A stretch of 64,000 nt of DNA from an uncultured Latescibacterota bacterium. Its GTDB lineage: Bacteria; Latescibacterota; UBA2968. Below are positions 55,854 through 63,099 of the stretch, in pieces. The stretch's first letter is position 1; each line of letters starts with the position of its first letter. The position numbers were made by a program, and so were the translations under genes. The notes beneath the pieces were generated by a model. The model was not told the origin of the DNA. It saw only the letters and a list, made by a program, of their open reading frames with translations, and did not search any database. The stretch is taken from contig OX638329.1 of the NCBI GenBank assembly GCA_951812755.1, positions 357,339 to 421,338 of the forward strand, read 5' to 3'.

Positions 55854-57110
55854 ATGAGAATACGATTAAAAAATCTTGGCATCTTAAAACATGCGGAATT
55901 TTCGCTGGGAGATTTGACCATTATCTGCGGTGAAAATAACACTGGCAAAACTTATGTGACGTATGCACTGTACGGTTTCTTGCGGTCCTGGCGTGAACTT
56001 GTGGATTTTTCGATTAGTGATGCTCAGATACAAAGATTGCTTGCAGATGATGTCCTCCATATCGACTTATCACAATATGTGAAAACAGCAAATCAAATTC
56101 TTGCGGAGGCCTGTAAGAAGTATAGGGATAAACTGGATAGAGTTTTTGCGGCAACAGAAGGGCGGTTTCGTAATAGTGAATTTTACATTGAGGTAGAAAT
56201 TCCCGATATACTCAATATGAAATATGAACGCGAAATGATGTCCACTCATAGTGATAATTGGGAGCCAGATGGTGAATGGCACTTTAGTTGTATAAAGAAA
56301 AAAGGGACTGAAGAGGTAATATTCACTTTGCTGGCAGAAAACAAAAGGCGGAGAAAGGAAATGCTTTCCCGGATGGCAAACAGATTTATTCATAATAGGA
56401 TCAGCGATATTATTTTTTGTGAATCCCCTCCTGTTCCCATTCTTCCTTTCCCCTTTATCATTTCAGCCGAACGCACTGGCGTGGCTATTTTTCGAGGAGA
56501 ACTAAATTTGGCTCGCAATCGCCTGCGTGACGAGATGGCGCAGGCGGATAAAGTGATGGATGCTCGGAACCGGCTATCCAAAGGGTATCCAAATTATCCT
56601 TCGCCAATAGAAGCCAATGTAGAGTTTACAAGCCAGCTTGAATACGTTGCAAAAAGAAAAAGCTTTATTACTAAAGAACATCCCGATGTATTGGAAGACT
56701 TTGCTGATATCATCGGTGGCGATTACAGCATAACACAAGATGACCTACCCTACTATATCCCCAAAGGGACGGAGATCAGGTTGACAATGGATCAAAGCTC
56801 AAGTGCTGTGCGTTCATTACTGGATATCGGTTTTTATCTGCGTTGTGTCGCCCAAAAAGGGGATCTGCTTATGGTAGATGAGCCGGAGTTAAACCTTCAT
56901 CCAGCAAACCAACGCCGCATTGCCAGACTTTTTGCGCGATTGGTGAATTTGGGGATTAAAGTCTTTGTAACGACCCATAGCGATTACATCGTCAAAGAGC
57001 TGAATACGCTTATCATGCTTAATCACGATAAGCCGCACTTAAAAAGAATTGCCGAAGAAAACGAGTATCGGGATGATGAGTTGATCAGTTCAGATCAGGT
57101 TAAAGTATGG
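55854..57110 (+). pseudogene. AAA family ATPase gene truncated by an IS200/IS605-type element
   Basis: About 419 residues of an ABC-type AAA ATPase (AAA_15/21). GGAGG lies 7 bases before MRIRLKNLGI. Walker A GENNTGKT (26-33), signature-like DQSSSAVRSLLDIGFYL, Walker B LLMVDEPELNLHP and FVTTHSDYI are intact. Homologues continue for several dozen residues after the THSDY block; here the frame runs into the TnpB element and reads on to 57407 as nonsense. No matching C-terminus was found beyond the element. Probably inactivated defence-type gene; residual function is possible because the ATPase core is whole. Confidence 0.7.
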
Positions 57111-58390
57111 GAATTATATACTAAACGGCCGGCGAGGCTGTTAGTATATTTCCTGCTTCATCGTGTTTTGCCACCATACTGGCTGGTCTTACATTCACTC
57201 CACAGGCGTTCACTTGTCTTCCGGATGATGACAAATCAATTTCGGTCATTCCGACCGTATTGTTTTGGATATTTCTTGCTGCATTCACATCGCGGTCATG
57301 ATGGATGCCACATACAGGACACTCCCATTCACGGATATGCAATGGGATGTCGTCGAGTTCGTGACCGCACACCGAACATGTCTTACTACTCGGATAGTAT
57401 GCATTGAGTTTCTTTACTCTTCGCCCATACCACATGCCTTTGTATTCCAACATGCGTACAAACTCCGACCAGGACACATCACCGATCAGGCGGGCAAGTC
57501 GTCGGTTTTTCATCATATTTCTTACACGTAATGTCTCTACACCGATAGCTTGGTTCTCACGTATCAGTCGTGTTGACAACTTATGCAAAAAATATCTCCG
57601 ACTATCTGCAATCTTTGCATATATCCGTGCTACTTCTCGTCGCGCTTTTTCCCTGTTTTTCGACCCCTTCTTCCGCCGGGACAGCGTACGTTGCGCTCTA
57701 CGTAGCTGCTTAAAGTGTTTATCAAAAAAGCGTGGGTTATCTACCTTCTCACCATTGCTCAATACCGTATGATGGGTTAATCCCAAATCTATACCTATTT
57801 TGGTATCGATGGGATCCAGTTGCTTAATAGGCTCTATTACGCCGATACTCACAAAGTACCTTCCCAAGCGGTCTTTCGTTACTGTCATATTACGTAATTC
57901 ACAGGCTTCTGATAATCTCTTATGAAATCGTACCTTTATATCACCATCTATCTTTTGTACCTTTATACCGCGTTCCGTCACCTTACACCGCGTCCGATCA
58001 TAACGGATACTCTGCTTATTACTCTTACTCTTAAAACGGGGCTTCCCACTCTGCTTATTAAAAAACTGCTCGTAACTATTCTTCAAAATACGTAACGACT
58101 CTTGTAACGCTCCCGCAGATACCTCATTCAACCATCCCTTATCCGGCTCTTTTTTTATCGCTGTCAATTCTTTCATCAATACCCCATGACTCACACTACG
58201 TCCCACCTCTTTATATGATTTTTCCTTCCGCTCCAAACCGTGATTATACACATACCGCACGCAGCCAAAAGTTTTATTTAATATGTGCTCTTGATATTTA
58301 TTCGGATACAAACGATACTTATATCCTCGCTGTATGCGCACTATACTCATCGCTTTACTCCAAAATACAATTTAAAACCTAAATTGTACT
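57111..58390 (-). mobile_element. TnpB-only IS200/IS605-family element
   Basis: The element holds tnpB but no tnpA. At the start side a small hairpin, ACAATTT/AAATTGT (58367-58387), is preceded on the minus strand by TTTAC (58395-58391), a plausible insertion-target word. At the end side a larger imperfect hairpin (57112-57126 / 57140-57151) spans the tnpB stop. Exact ends are inferred from these hairpins. It would need a TnpA in trans to move. Confidence 0.7.
57121..58350 (-). CDS. tnpB: RNA-guided endonuclease TnpB (IS605 OrfB family)
   Basis: A 409-residue TnpB, ancestor-like relative of Cas12, which cuts DNA guided by an RNA from the element end. The N-terminal helix-turn-helix-like domain (RGYKYRLYPNKYQEHILN) precedes the RuvC core: Asp188 (GIDLGLTHH), Glu272 (VGVETLRV) and Asp354 (HDRDVNAARN) are all kept. 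A C4 zinc finger uses Cys325, 328, 344 and 347. GGAG precedes the ATG. The protein looks intact. Confidence 0.94.
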   Translation of the reverse strand: MSIVRIQRGYKYRLYPNKYQEHILNKTFGCVRYVYNHGLERKEKSYKEVGRSVSHGVLMKELTAIKKEPDKGWLNEVSAGALQESLRILKNSYEQFFNKQSGKPRFKSKSNKQSIRYDRTRCKVTERGIKVQKIDGDIKVRFHKRLSEACELRNMTVTKDRLGRYFVSIGVIEPIKQLDPIDTKIGIDLGLTHHTVLSNGEKVDNPRFFDKHFKQLRRAQRTLSRRKKGSKNREKARREVARIYAKIADSRRYFLHKLSTRLIRENQAIGVETLRVRNMMKNRRLARLIGDVSWSEFVRMLEYKGMWYGRRVKKLNAYYPSSKTCSVCGHELDDIPLHIREWECPVCGIHHDRDVNAARNIQNNTVGMTEIDLSSSGRQVNACGVNVRPASMVAKHDEAGNILTASPAV

Positions 58391-58468
58391 GTAAATATAA
58401 ATAATTTCAATAATTTACACAAGTATTATTGCCTTCAAAACTTATCTCATTCCGCTAAATTCTGGCCA

Positions 58469-58859
58469 TTTTGTATATAAGTCCCAAATGATAATACAGA
58501 AAAATTTTCACTGTGCTGTACCAATTCTAAATTTTTCCTGTGTATCCCTGTATGTTCGGACAAAATATCCAATGCTTCTTTTCCCCCCAAAGACCCTCTA
58601 TATCTACCAGCCATCTATCAGGCAATAATCCGTCAACCACAGGATAAAAACCAAGTTTTTCTGGTTCTTTTTCCACATGTCCTAAATATTTACCCGTCGT
58701 ATTATTTCTTAATCCATACACACCAGAATCAAAATTTGAACTGGGAAAAGAAATTTCTCTTTTGCTCATGTGACACCCTCAATATGTGGCAAAATCAAAT
58801 TCTATCCACTTTTCACACTTTCCATTTTACTCTGACACATCAGATGTTTTGTATATAAG
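58469..58859. repeat. TTTTGTATATAAG direct repeats around the small gene
   Basis: The 13-base word TTTTGTATATAAG, each followed by a similar YCCC, occurs at 58469-58481 and 58847-58859, either side of the 80-residue gene. The spacing is 378 bases. Confidence 0.5.
58527..58769 (-). CDS. Hypothetical protein, 80 residues
   Basis: The protein starts MSKREISFPSSNFDSGVYGL and has no recognised domain. It is rich in Gly, Trp and aromatic residues (DRWLVDIEGLWGEKKHWIF) and could be a small beta protein. GAGGGTG lies about 6 bases before the ATG. It lies between the TnpB element and the FG-GAP gene, flanked by short direct repeats. Function unknown. Confidence 0.45.
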   Translation of the reverse strand: MSKREISFPSSNFDSGVYGLRNNTTGKYLGHVEKEPEKLGFYPVVDGLLPDRWLVDIEGLWGEKKHWIFCPNIQGYTGKI

Positions 58860-58939
58860 CCCCTTTTTTATCTTAGTGAGAGTATTATATTTTTTCAAGG
58901 AATTTTTTTTAAACAGCATAAGGACGAGGGAGCAACCCG

Positions 58940-60495: not shown

Positions 60496-63099
60496 CTATT
60501 CGGCAACATCGATGATGGCGATACCCACCACCACACTCACTTGCCCGCCCTTGCCATCGCTGACCCGCACGATGGGAGAATACCAGTTCCTCTCCTCAAA
60601 ATTATACGTCCCTTTTGTCTCAAGCTGACCTGTCTTCACATCGATAGCAAAATACTCGGCATCGATACCCCACAGACTGTAAGTGAGAGGTCCACCATCG
60701 GCACCCGTCGCTGAGATGGGTTCGCCTATCGGCTGCCCCGGTGGCGTGTTCTCCTCGACAAAGCGCATCACGGGAAGTGCTGATGTAAAGACCGGCACGC
60801 GACTCACCACCTTGCCGAAGTTATCGACAAAGAGCAGAAAATCGGGGATCCCTATCTCCTCATTCCTGTCCAGATCGTATTTTGTCTCATATCTCTCTTG
60901 ACCCACCTTTAACCCGAACACATCCACAAAGAGCAAAAAGTCCGGGATATCTACCGTCCCATTCCCGTTAAAATCCGCAGAAGGCTCACCGACCGGTAAG
61001 GCAACAGAGGCCCCCTGTAAGGCTACGCTGAGAAACATCGGGAGGGTCTCGGACTGTCTCCCTTGCAAGAGCTTAATCCGCACCAGACGTATCTCTGTCT
61101 CTGAAAGCGCATCCATCGTGCGAAAACGAATTGTGCCCATCAGACCACTATCGTTCCTTGTATCACTATCAGGTAAGGTCATACCGATATTCGCAAAATC
61201 CTTGCCAGAAAGCGCAGACGTGCCCGATAAAACATCACCCCGCTTAAATCCCTCGTAGGCCACCTGCGTTGCATCGTATTCAAAGCGAACGGAAAGATCG
61301 TTTACAGGAATAGCTTTAAGACGCTTCCCAAAAATCTGGATAGACGCACTGCCGCCATCAGGAGAAACACCGAGAAAGGACCTGAACTGATCTCCTTCAG
61401 AATCATCTATATCCAGAGAAAGGGAAAAACGGTCACTCGGAATGAGCGTGCTGGTACGCACTGTGCCCAGTTCCGACCACTCGCTATCGCCTGAAGAATT
61501 ACTCGCCCGGATCTGGATCTCGTATTCGGTATCGGGATTCAGTCCCGGGATGATGGCTCTCGTCCCGATTATATCTTGTGGACCGTCTATAAAGTCTGTG
61601 GTGCCACTCTCTCGATAGCGCAGGTCATAGGTCGAGACGACCGATCCTTCTGGCACCTGCCAGTTGATGACCATACTGGTTGCCAATGCACTCGTCACCG
61701 TGGGCGTGTCAGGCGGTGGTGGCGGTGGTGGTGGCGGTGGTGGTGGCGGTGGTGGTGGCGGTGGTGGTGGCGGTGGTGGTGGCGGTGGTGGCGGTGGTGG
61801 TGGTGGTGGCGGTGGTGGTGGCGGTGGTGTGCCCGGTGTCTGTGTATCTGGTGTCTGTGTATCTGGTGTCTGTGTATCTGGTGGCAAGCCGCGGAAGACA
61901 AAGGTGATCCGCGTTGCCGTCGGCACATGTGACAGCATCAAGCCGTCCGCCGTGCAGATTCCACCCGCAGCGCACGCCTGGTCCGTCACCAGAGCGAACA
62001 CGATCTGATCCGTGCCCGTTGGTTGGATAAAGAATATCCACGCATTCTCCAGTCCTTCCTCCTGATGGGGCAGCACGTTTGCCAACGTCCCGCCCGTCAC
62101 TTGCACCGACGGCGTTGTCGTGGTGATCGTCGCCACCGGAGGGTCGAACGATACCACCACCTGCGGCCGGTCGTCCACCCCCGTGTGGAACCTCGATGTG
62201 AACTGGGTCCCCGGAAATGTCGCCACCAGATCGTTGTCTTTGATCGTGACGGTTGTGTAGGGAGGGTCCGGTATCGATAGGAGCGAGTGGAAACCAGTGT
62301 CGGCGGTGAGTCGAATCTTAAGTTGCTCGTCTTCCTCAGGGATGTCGTCGTCCAGGGTCTGGATCTCGACGGTTTTTGTTTGCTGATGCGCCGATAATAC
62401 CTGGGTCTCGCTCTTGCTCTGGTAGTCTGACCCTGCCATTGTCGTGCTGTCTGCCGTTGAGAGTGTGAAACTATCTATTTGGAATTCTACCGACTGGTCC
62501 ACTGAGATGGTCGCCGTGATCGCGTCGCCCTCGATCACCGTTAGAGGGGCGCTCACCGTTATCTCCGGCTTCCGGCCGATTTTCACCGTCGTGGTGCCTT
62601 TTGACGATGACACGGTCGCGTGGGATGGGAGCCCCGTGCCGTCGATTGTAAGCGTGAACTGCTCCGTGTCCTCGGTGATCCCGTCGGCAGTGATGTCCAT
62701 GTCTATATACTGGGTCTGGACGTACTGACCGCCCTCGGAGACATAGTTTGAGGCAGTGAAGGTCAGGGTGACTGAGACCGCAGTGTAGTCAGTCCCTTCT
62801 GTCGCGGTGCCGCCCATCGACGTGACGGTGACTGTAATGGCCTGCGTCGGTGTCCCGCTACTCGTTGTTCTGGCCTGCACCGGTATGCCGGTCGATTTCG
62901 CACCCTCATTGAAGTGGAAAGTTGTCTTCTCGAACTCGACCGTGATATTCGGCTCGTTTTGTGCCCCGGCCGTCAGTGGCAGAGATAGTAGCGCGGCGAG
63001 TGCCAGCAGACCCGCCGCTAATTTATAGGAATATAGAAGACCAATCCAGACGCCGCGTAACAGGCTGTAAGACCCCAATCTGAGAATGTGCGATTCCAT
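60496..63099 (-). CDS. Secreted multidomain protein with Calx-beta, poly-Pro, FN3, cohesin-like and dockerin-like modules
   Basis: An 867-residue exported protein. A signal peptide ends near Ala47. Two Calx-beta domains (about 50-290) carry EDTEQFTLTI and EEDEQLKIRL. PDTQT repeats lead to 39 consecutive Pro (425-463). A fibronectin III domain follows (465-550), then a cohesin-like domain (SVRFEYDATQVAYEGFKRGD), a pair of dockerin-like calcium loops (DFNGNGTVDIPDFLLFVDVF and DLDRNEEIGIPDFLLFVDNF) and a cadherin-like end. It is likely a cell-surface or matrix protein for glycan or partner binding. AGGAGG precedes the ATG. No sortase or Por tail is seen. Confidence 0.88.
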   Translation of the reverse strand: MESHILRLGSYSLLRGVWIGLLYSYKLAAGLLALAALLSLPLTAGAQNEPNITVEFEKTTFHFNEGAKSTGIPVQARTTSSGTPTQAITVTVTSMGGTATEGTDYTAVSVTLTFTASNYVSEGGQYVQTQYIDMDITADGITEDTEQFTLTIDGTGLPSHATVSSSKGTTTVKIGRKPEITVSAPLTVIEGDAITATISVDQSVEFQIDSFTLSTADSTTMAGSDYQSKSETQVLSAHQQTKTVEIQTLDDDIPEEDEQLKIRLTADTGFHSLLSIPDPPYTTVTIKDNDLVATFPGTQFTSRFHTGVDDRPQVVVSFDPPVATITTTTPSVQVTGGTLANVLPHQEEGLENAWIFFIQPTGTDQIVFALVTDQACAAGGICTADGLMLSHVPTATRITFVFRGLPPDTQTPDTQTPDTQTPGTPPPPPPPPPPPPPPPPPPPPPPPPPPPPPPPPPPPPPPPDTPTVTSALATSMVINWQVPEGSVVSTYDLRYRESGTTDFIDGPQDIIGTRAIIPGLNPDTEYEIQIRASNSSGDSEWSELGTVRTSTLIPSDRFSLSLDIDDSEGDQFRSFLGVSPDGGSASIQIFGKRLKAIPVNDLSVRFEYDATQVAYEGFKRGDVLSGTSALSGKDFANIGMTLPDSDTRNDSGLMGTIRFRTMDALSETEIRLVRIKLLQGRQSETLPMFLSVALQGASVALPVGEPSADFNGNGTVDIPDFLLFVDVFGLKVGQERYETKYDLDRNEEIGIPDFLLFVDNFGKVVSRVPVFTSALPVMRFVEENTPPGQPIGEPISATGADGGPLTYSLWGIDAEYFAIDVKTGQLETKGTYNFEERNWYSPIVRVSDGKGGQVSVVVGIAIIDVAE
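61711..61827 (-). repeat. GGTGGTGGC-type microsatellite coding for 39 prolines
   Basis: 117 bases of GGN triplets on the plus strand (GGT and GGC mixed in about 9-12-base periods) encode residues 425-463, all Pro. The array is in frame, so changes of copy number in threes would only alter linker length. Confidence 0.95.
61834..61882 (-). repeat. 15-bp tandem repeat coding for PDTQT
   Basis: Three copies of a GTGTCTGTGTATCTG-type unit follow the proline array and encode PDTQT repeats at about residues 407-421. Confidence 0.85.

Follow-up and report, generated by a model that had tools for sequence, protein, structure and literature searches.

TnpB, the RNA-guided nuclease of IS200/IS605-type elements, is regarded as the ancestor of Cas12. 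IS200/IS605 elements are not known to carry inverted repeats or to make a target duplication, and those of the IS1341-like type are normally devoid of a Y1 transposase; ISDra2 and the IS1341-like elements are the TnpB-bearing members of the group used here for comparison. The IS1595 transposons, a bacterial family of the cut-and-paste type, are not commonly associated with tnpB. In this family, passenger genes and mobile insertion cassettes are known, according to passages of PMC3129680. In eukaryotes, Fanzors have been captured by transposons with terminal inverted repeats (TIRs), some of them non-autonomous, and the TIR together with the target-site duplication (TSD) is predicted, in the portion of PMC10711439 consulted, to be part of the RNA scaffold. 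Here we describe a stretch of 64,000 nucleotides from an uncultured Latescibacterota bacterium (the window, positions 357339-421338 of one 6.53-Mb contig), in which a tnpB gene framed by IS1595-type repeats interrupts an ATPase gene. To judge from its sequence, the interrupting element is an IS1595-type cassette without transposase. The explanation that we consider likely as a whole is that of a non-autonomous IS1595-family cassette with a captured IS605-type TnpB, which would have refitted its omega-RNA to the new end, would move in trans and would favour its own retention at the site. The features on which this explanation is built are the following, L119 being a transposase-bearing IS1595 element of the same genus.

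55854-57108, plus strand: AAA_15/AAA_21 ATPase gene, 5' part, 418 codons, truncated by the element; at locus L010 a relative is intact, with 476 aa and a match to PADLOC PDC-M47A.
57109-58485, minus strand: mobile element of 1377 bp, a non-autonomous IS1595-type cassette with tnpB as its sole recognised gene, delimited by the empty sites L010-L012, the second copy L029 and the repeats.
57121-58350, minus strand: tnpB, 409 aa, IS605-type RNA-guided nuclease with RuvC residues D188, E272 and D354 intact.
57109-57132, plus strand: TIR on the tnpB 3' side, 21/24 identical to the L119 repeat; the final codons of tnpB fall within it, as does the 3' arm of the hairpin predicted for the omega-RNA.
58462-58485, minus strand: TIR on the tnpB 5' side, 21/24 identical to the L119 repeat.

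The ATPase frame is unbroken from 55854 to 57108 and then continues into foreign DNA, and its homology to same-genus proteins reaches residue 419. The ATPase locus is free of the element in three same-genus genomes (G007, G009 and G012, loci L010, L011 and L012), whose ATPases are 87%, 87% and 83% identical to that of the window. In these empty sites the left homology ends at 57108 (57106 in L012) and restarts at 58486, colinearity with the window extending to 60255, 60257 and 60057, respectively. A second tnpB copy, L029 in G012, aligns to exactly 57109-58485 with 92% identity. Hence, the empty sites and the alignment of L029 set the borders at 57109 and 58485, and the element measures 1377 bp. 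No ATPase C-terminus is found downstream of it; the DNA from 58486 on matches a convergent gene. A first-pass annotation of this DNA had proposed that a TnpB element cuts the ATPase gene with no C-terminus resuming after it, and both proposals stand. It had also placed the end of the element at 58390 and, as a possibility, the motif flanking the target immediately beyond, at this position:

58391-58395, minus strand: TTTAC of the first-pass annotation, which lies inside the element and reads TTTAT in the second copy.

That annotation had asked for an empty site in relatives and had accepted different borders as a refutation, and the three relatives do place them differently. The model in which the TnpB element stops at 58390 and TTTAC serves as the target-adjacent motif therefore deserves practically no credence, since both the border and the motif are refuted by the empty sites together with the second copy; the interruption of the gene, the intact nuclease and the side of the guide were correctly seen, while the class of the element was not and a loss of about 1.2 kb beside it was missed.

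The two ends of the element, GGGAATTATATAC... and GGGACTTATATAC..., are inverted repeats, and the next-best match to the L119 repeat in the window, on either strand, is 16/24. Because its repeats match those of transposase-bearing elements of the genus to this degree at each end, the element is assigned to the IS1595-type cassettes. Between the repeats, three frames reach 60 aa, namely tnpB and two antisense ones (88 and 122 aa), so that a passenger gene is present and no transposase of its own was recognised, the Pfam scan having covered tnpB only; among the open reading frames of the element there is none for the Y1 transposase TnpA. The copy L029 is bordered on both sides by the 8-bp target duplication TTAACAAA, and its flanks overlap by exactly 8 bp in four of the five empty-site loci found through its left flank, the fifth (L150) matching at the left flank only. 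Repeats in both intact copies and a duplication in L029 are not what an IS200/IS605 element would display. Across the genus, GGGNNTTATATACNA was matched 58 times, versus 2 for the reversed control, in 11/11 genomes, that of the window included. Identical 8-bp flanks were present in 7 of 11 facing repeat pairs examined (L118, L119, L120, L121 and L122 in G014; L126 and L029 in G012), and across these seven elements 0/42 cross pairs of flanks match. The independent duplications are six, since L121 sits in a duplicate of the L119 site. A MITE-like (miniature inverted-repeat transposable element) facing pair of 96 bp devoid of a duplication was observed in the genome of the window itself (L113, 5317-5412).

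The encoded TnpB contains the Pfam domains OrfB_IS605, Cas12f1-like_TNB and HTH_OrfB_IS605. Its closest natural solved proteins are 8h1j and 8bf8, which we take to be ISDra2 TnpB, the overall best match being an AI-designed nuclease. The RuvC residues D188, E272 and D354 (in DRDVN), read as an intact triad already in the first-pass annotation, are accompanied by two CxxC motifs, and together with the domains they place the protein in the typical TnpB clade, defined in the part of PMC10278001 consulted by the RuvC-III motif DRDxN. The tnpB genes of the window and L029 encode proteins 93% identical, with a dN/dS of 0.13, and judged by that ratio TnpB is under purifying selection. Further copies exist in G010, at 53% (L030) and 51% (L039) identity, each containing a stop; repeats flank L030 on both sides, and L039 only at the 3' side of tnpB. 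When 26 TnpBs are placed in a tree, the proteins of all four repeat-bearing copies fall into one group (support 90/99, 86% of bootstrap trees), next to which, by path, come Lachnospiraceae TnpBs, with long branches flagged by the tool. The capture of TnpB between IS1595-type repeats has thus probably happened once. When 39 TnpB loci were scanned for an inverted repeat plus an 8-bp duplication, the highest score from shuffled sequence at any locus was 20 and only L029, at 22, exceeded it, the real locus next in rank scoring 19; the scan used six shuffles per locus, is blind by design to copies without TSD (window, L030, L039) and included loci that end near a contig end. The other TnpBs scanned seem not to use the IS1595-type route. 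No further copies were found in IMG/VR, and GTDB contigs gave 11 matching loci in records of Lachnospiraceae, other Clostridia and Phascolarctobacterium. At the five of these with long matches (L130-L134) a repeat plus 8-bp duplication did not rise above shuffles, and one of them, L130, adjoins a Y1 transposase. As a separate observation, a relic of the tnpB leader and first codons, of about 90-125 bp, is located at one orthologous place in six same-genus genomes (L067-L072, about 1500-1620); the gene near the L067 relic is presumably apbE-like.

The tnpB 3' end and the adjoining border also contain the elements of a putative guide RNA:

57150-57206, minus strand: predicted omega-RNA core within the tnpB 3' end (CCTGTGGAG ... 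GATGAAGCAGGAA), matching Rfam RAGATH-18 below the gathering score.
57116-57149, minus strand: hairpin closing the predicted omega-RNA, 7 nt short of the border, with its 3' arm within the transposon repeat; z -4.15.
57089-57108, minus strand: presumed guide sequence (ATPase gene, antisense), from its position beside the element end.

The core motif stretch in the tnpB 3' end reads CCTGTGGAGTG...CGATGAAGCAGGAA; the core sequence is the same in the window and in L029, which score identical bits. Similar core motifs can be recognised by eye in L130-L133, yet with no Rfam match at E 0.1. The hairpin is unusually stable on the tnpB side of both intact copies (z -4.15 in the window and -3.71 in L029; 0/200 shuffles each), and strong as well in L030 when 63 nt are folded (z -5.20), while control ends have z values of at least -1.93 (the other ends of the window element and of L030, and 10 ends, 9 of them distinct, of five tnpB-less elements). 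A stem-loop within 10 nt of the scaffold 3' end is described, in the portion of PMC10278001 consulted, as the sole consistently conserved feature of TnpB RNAs. In the window and in L029 it lies 7 nt away, assuming that the guide starts at the element end. If matters proceed as in IS605 elements, the guide would begin at the element border and read antisense ATPase; the first-pass annotation had likewise looked for the guide in the ATPase DNA beside the tnpB 3' end, with which the sub-threshold core and the position of the hairpin agree. The first 20 guide bases have 0, 1 and 1 mismatches in the three empty relatives, and among ten matches listed for the 69 bases tested against the own genome (the site included) the best off-site ones are 15 bases exact or 17 at 94%. 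Codons 379-409 of tnpB show no synonymous change between the two intact copies. However, the longest identical run of the two copies, 92 columns, falls outside the omega-RNA region and is reached by 235/5000 shuffles; hence any special conservation of that region is weakly indicated.

Several known systems share traits with the locus. With the IS200/IS605 TnpB elements it has in common the protein family, an omega-RNA core overlapping the tnpB 3' end and a hairpin few nucleotides before the guide, but there is no Y1 transposase in the element, and inverted repeats and an 8-bp duplication are present. With IS1595 elements, as portrayed in the sources consulted, it has in common repeats of the kind found in elements with PF12762 transposases, an A/T-rich 8-bp duplication, passengers and the existence of transposase-less versions; it is set apart by its passenger, a tnpB together with a predicted omega-RNA that is fused at its end to the repeat, no IS1595 element with this TnpB having come up among the papers listed. 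RAGATH-18 is reported only with IS607 TnpBs in what was consulted of PMC11061315, and the core resembles the RNAs derived from it there in matching the covariance model. It differs from them in its sub-gathering score, in lying inside the tnpB coding region and in the absence of an IS607 recombinase from the element. An IS607 origin, hinted at by this match, was considered and dropped in view of the nearest natural structures and of the Y1 transposase next to L130. These same two facts, the first of which marks the TnpB as IS605-type by sequence, would suit an ordinary IS605-type (IS1341-like) tnpB element lying in or beside an IS1595-type MITE to which alone the repeats belong. Against such a juxtaposition, the 24-bp repeat contains the tnpB stop, 12 nt from where the element ends, which leaves no space for a distinct right end; what the four empty sites of L029 lack is the unit with both repeats, with the 8-bp duplication; and the hairpin is built partly from the repeat. 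We regard it as very improbable.

Returning to the cassette in the ATPase gene, its right side is occupied by:

58486-58493, plus strand: right flank AAATGATA, which is no repeat of the left flank TAAAGTAT; relatives have about 1.2 kb between the two that the window lacks.
58527-58769, minus strand: convergent gene, remaining 5' part (223 aa in L010); its 3' part is absent in the window, with a frameshift before the cut.

The relatives L010, L011 and L012 hold 1210, 1175 and 1196 bp between the parts matching the window, which lacks them; therefore, an insertion plus a loss took place, and not a plain insertion. In L010 the missing stretch comprises the end of the ATPase (476 aa in total), a 199-aa gene and the 3' part of the convergent 223-aa gene. 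The intact pair of L010 matches the PADLOC models PDC-M47A (1.5e-197, nearly full length) and PDC-M47B (7.1e-58), as well as PD-T4-4_A (3e-151) and, weakly, PD-T4-4_B (8.7e-4). Hence, the event would have removed part of a candidate anti-phage defence system, "defence" being the label of the database. The two flanks present in the window are not adjacent in the arrangement of the relatives, touch the element exactly and are both A/T-rich over 8 bp. Since they do so, the loss may have occurred either by recombination of two copies inserted 1.2 kb apart or through an adjacent deletion made by the transposase, and the data fit both routes equally. A solo repeat-like TTTTGTATATAAGCCCC at 58847-58863 was tried as an element end and rejected, being an old relic common to relatives; it is also found, with its end altered, in L076 and L077. 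Further along the window, at 60496-63099 on the minus strand, lies a frame of 867 aa that includes dozens of prolines in a row.

At the uninserted ATPase the bases preceding the guide match on the tnpB strand are ...CTATAT in L010 and ...CATAT in L011 and L012, and at the L029 site its four empty relatives have ...GATAT. ATAT thus precedes the guide match at both known insertion sites, which with n=2 is suggestive of a target motif; TAT is found at the right flank of the window element, which would be relevant if that flank marks a second insertion. The outer flanks of the six other TSD-bearing elements end in AT in 0/12 cases (Fisher p 0.011, or 0.015 with 10 ends when the duplicate site is dropped), in a comparison chosen after seeing the data and with the tnpB elements counted on one side only. 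L030 does not fit the motif (TTTTGCAA). Where the element is inserted, the repeat (...AATTCCC) stands before the guide match, and because of this the element would spare itself under an ATAT motif. That the element guards its own site, as had been suggested in the first-pass annotation, is possible.

The favoured explanation would run as follows. An IS200/IS605-type TnpB with its omega-RNA would have been captured, probably once, between IS1595-type inverted repeats; IS1595 transposases of the DDE type would recognise these repeats, move the cassette in trans and duplicate 8 bp. The omega-RNA would have been refitted to the new end, with the repeat providing the final codons of tnpB as well as the 3' arm of the hairpin and the final bases of the scaffold, and any DNA flanking an insertion would thereby become guide. 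This cassette would have landed in the ATPase gene of the candidate defence pair, and one of the two routes described would have removed about 1.2 kb from the other side, exactly at the element end. The guide-loaded TnpB would then cut uninserted copies of the site, for instance in DNA arriving from relatives, if the preceding motif fits, and so favour retention.

The repeat family has other passengers within the genus. L119 and L120 carry a transposase together with type III restriction-modification genes, the L119 transposase matching PF12762 at 3.3e-39 and also PF12760. L118 carries an IS1595 transposase (PF12762/PF12760) broken by a stop plus a type IIG enzyme, and L122 a methyltransferase-HNH protein with no transposase; the domain scans covered the proteins of L118, L119, L121, L122 and L126. 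The restriction-modification carriers with clean 8-bp duplications are all in G014 (L118 1166-6308, L119 1511-11327, L120 1565-11381 and L122 1405-3056). The IS1595-type elements of the genus are, hence, a vehicle for defence genes in their own right. L121 (2589-3868) and L119 (1511-11327) are different elements with the same target duplication and duplicated flanks, and one may have derived from the other, the interior having been swapped for a repeat-rich frame of 345 aa. On contig 1 of G014, 18 of the 38 IS1595-like transposase matches listed carry exactly one in-frame TGA.

A number of observations weigh against the favoured explanation. The window copy itself has no target duplication, about 1.2 kb being absent beside it, and identical 8-bp flanks are missing from four of the 11 facing pairs (the window copy, L030, L113 5317-5412 and L100 188-295, the last two short, at about 0.1 kb each). 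In L030 the right repeat is accompanied by 4 additional bases, and the flanks overlap by 9 bp, L159 being the sole informative relative. The RAGATH-18 match reaches 33.3 bits versus a gathering score of 44.9 (E 5.8e-4 in a 2-kb search), and no such match was obtained in L030, L039 or L130-L133. The tnpB-side end of L030 is ordinary when 43 nt are folded (z -0.32), that of L039 forms no unusual hairpin over 84 nt (z -0.66), and the whole 112-nt RNAs are ordinary too (z -1.18 in the window and -0.86 in L029). An 8-bp duplication, moreover, turns the first 8 guide bases into target-site bases. Only four copies passed E 1e-60 in the 64 genomes of the phylum searched, two of them the broken L030 and L039. 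In the own genome the L119 transposase has one match (54%), which contains a stop, and no such repeat lies within 1.5 kb of it; for these reasons the cassette probably depended for its movement here on a partner that the strain has since lost or that never became fixed in it, and the mobility of the cassette in this genome may be over.

Part of these observations would equally be expected of a dead passenger, that is, a cassette moved by an IS1595 transposase whose TnpB and RNA no longer work and whose ATPase-derived guide was never used. The stops in two of the four copies, the lack of an intact transposase of the L119 group among those found in the own genome and the L039 end without hairpin speak for it. 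However, the dN/dS between the intact copies, the preserved catalytic residues, and an omega-RNA core identical in both intact copies with the hairpin retained speak against it, and we hold this alternative to be unlikely.

Similarity to the Fanzors invites a wider reading. As presented in the portion of PMC10711439 consulted, Fanzor2* and Fanzor1 are likewise TnpB-type nucleases in cut-and-paste transposons with TIRs and TSDs, some units encoding the nuclease alone; unlike the cassette described here, which is bacterial, IS605-type and has DRDxN, they are eukaryotic, belong to the IS607 TnpB lineage and have an unusual active site. In Fanzors the scaffold reportedly also takes in the TSD. A rather doubtful extension is that of a bacterial parallel to Fanzor capture, in which an IS1595 DDE family took over an IS605-type TnpB by fusing repeat and hairpin, and the surviving insertions are those beside a usable motif (ATAT), where TnpB destroys uninserted alleles, here of a defence gene. 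If so, RNA-guided homing would have become independent of the single-strand transposase that had shaped it. A search of the literature, mostly at the level of titles and abstract openings plus passages of PMC9956272, PMC12888890 and PMC3129680, showed no bacterial IS1595 element with this TnpB among the papers listed. Given this scope, and since the consulted part of PMC10278001 mentions, without detail, TnpBs associated with other transposases, the priority of finding tnpB in an IS1595 element is uncertain.

According to that same part of PMC10278001, the target motif of TnpB is believed to be bound up with the carrying transposase. A TnpB on a DDE transposon would be a direct test of the case in which this tie is broken, and raises the question of whether a target motif may be selected after insertion rather than during it, and of the place of the 8-bp duplication in the guide. 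It would also provide a bacterial model for the entry of Fanzors into eukaryotic DNA transposons. Moreover, the same repeat family carries restriction-modification genes, so that DNA-cutting genes in general may travel in cassettes of this kind.

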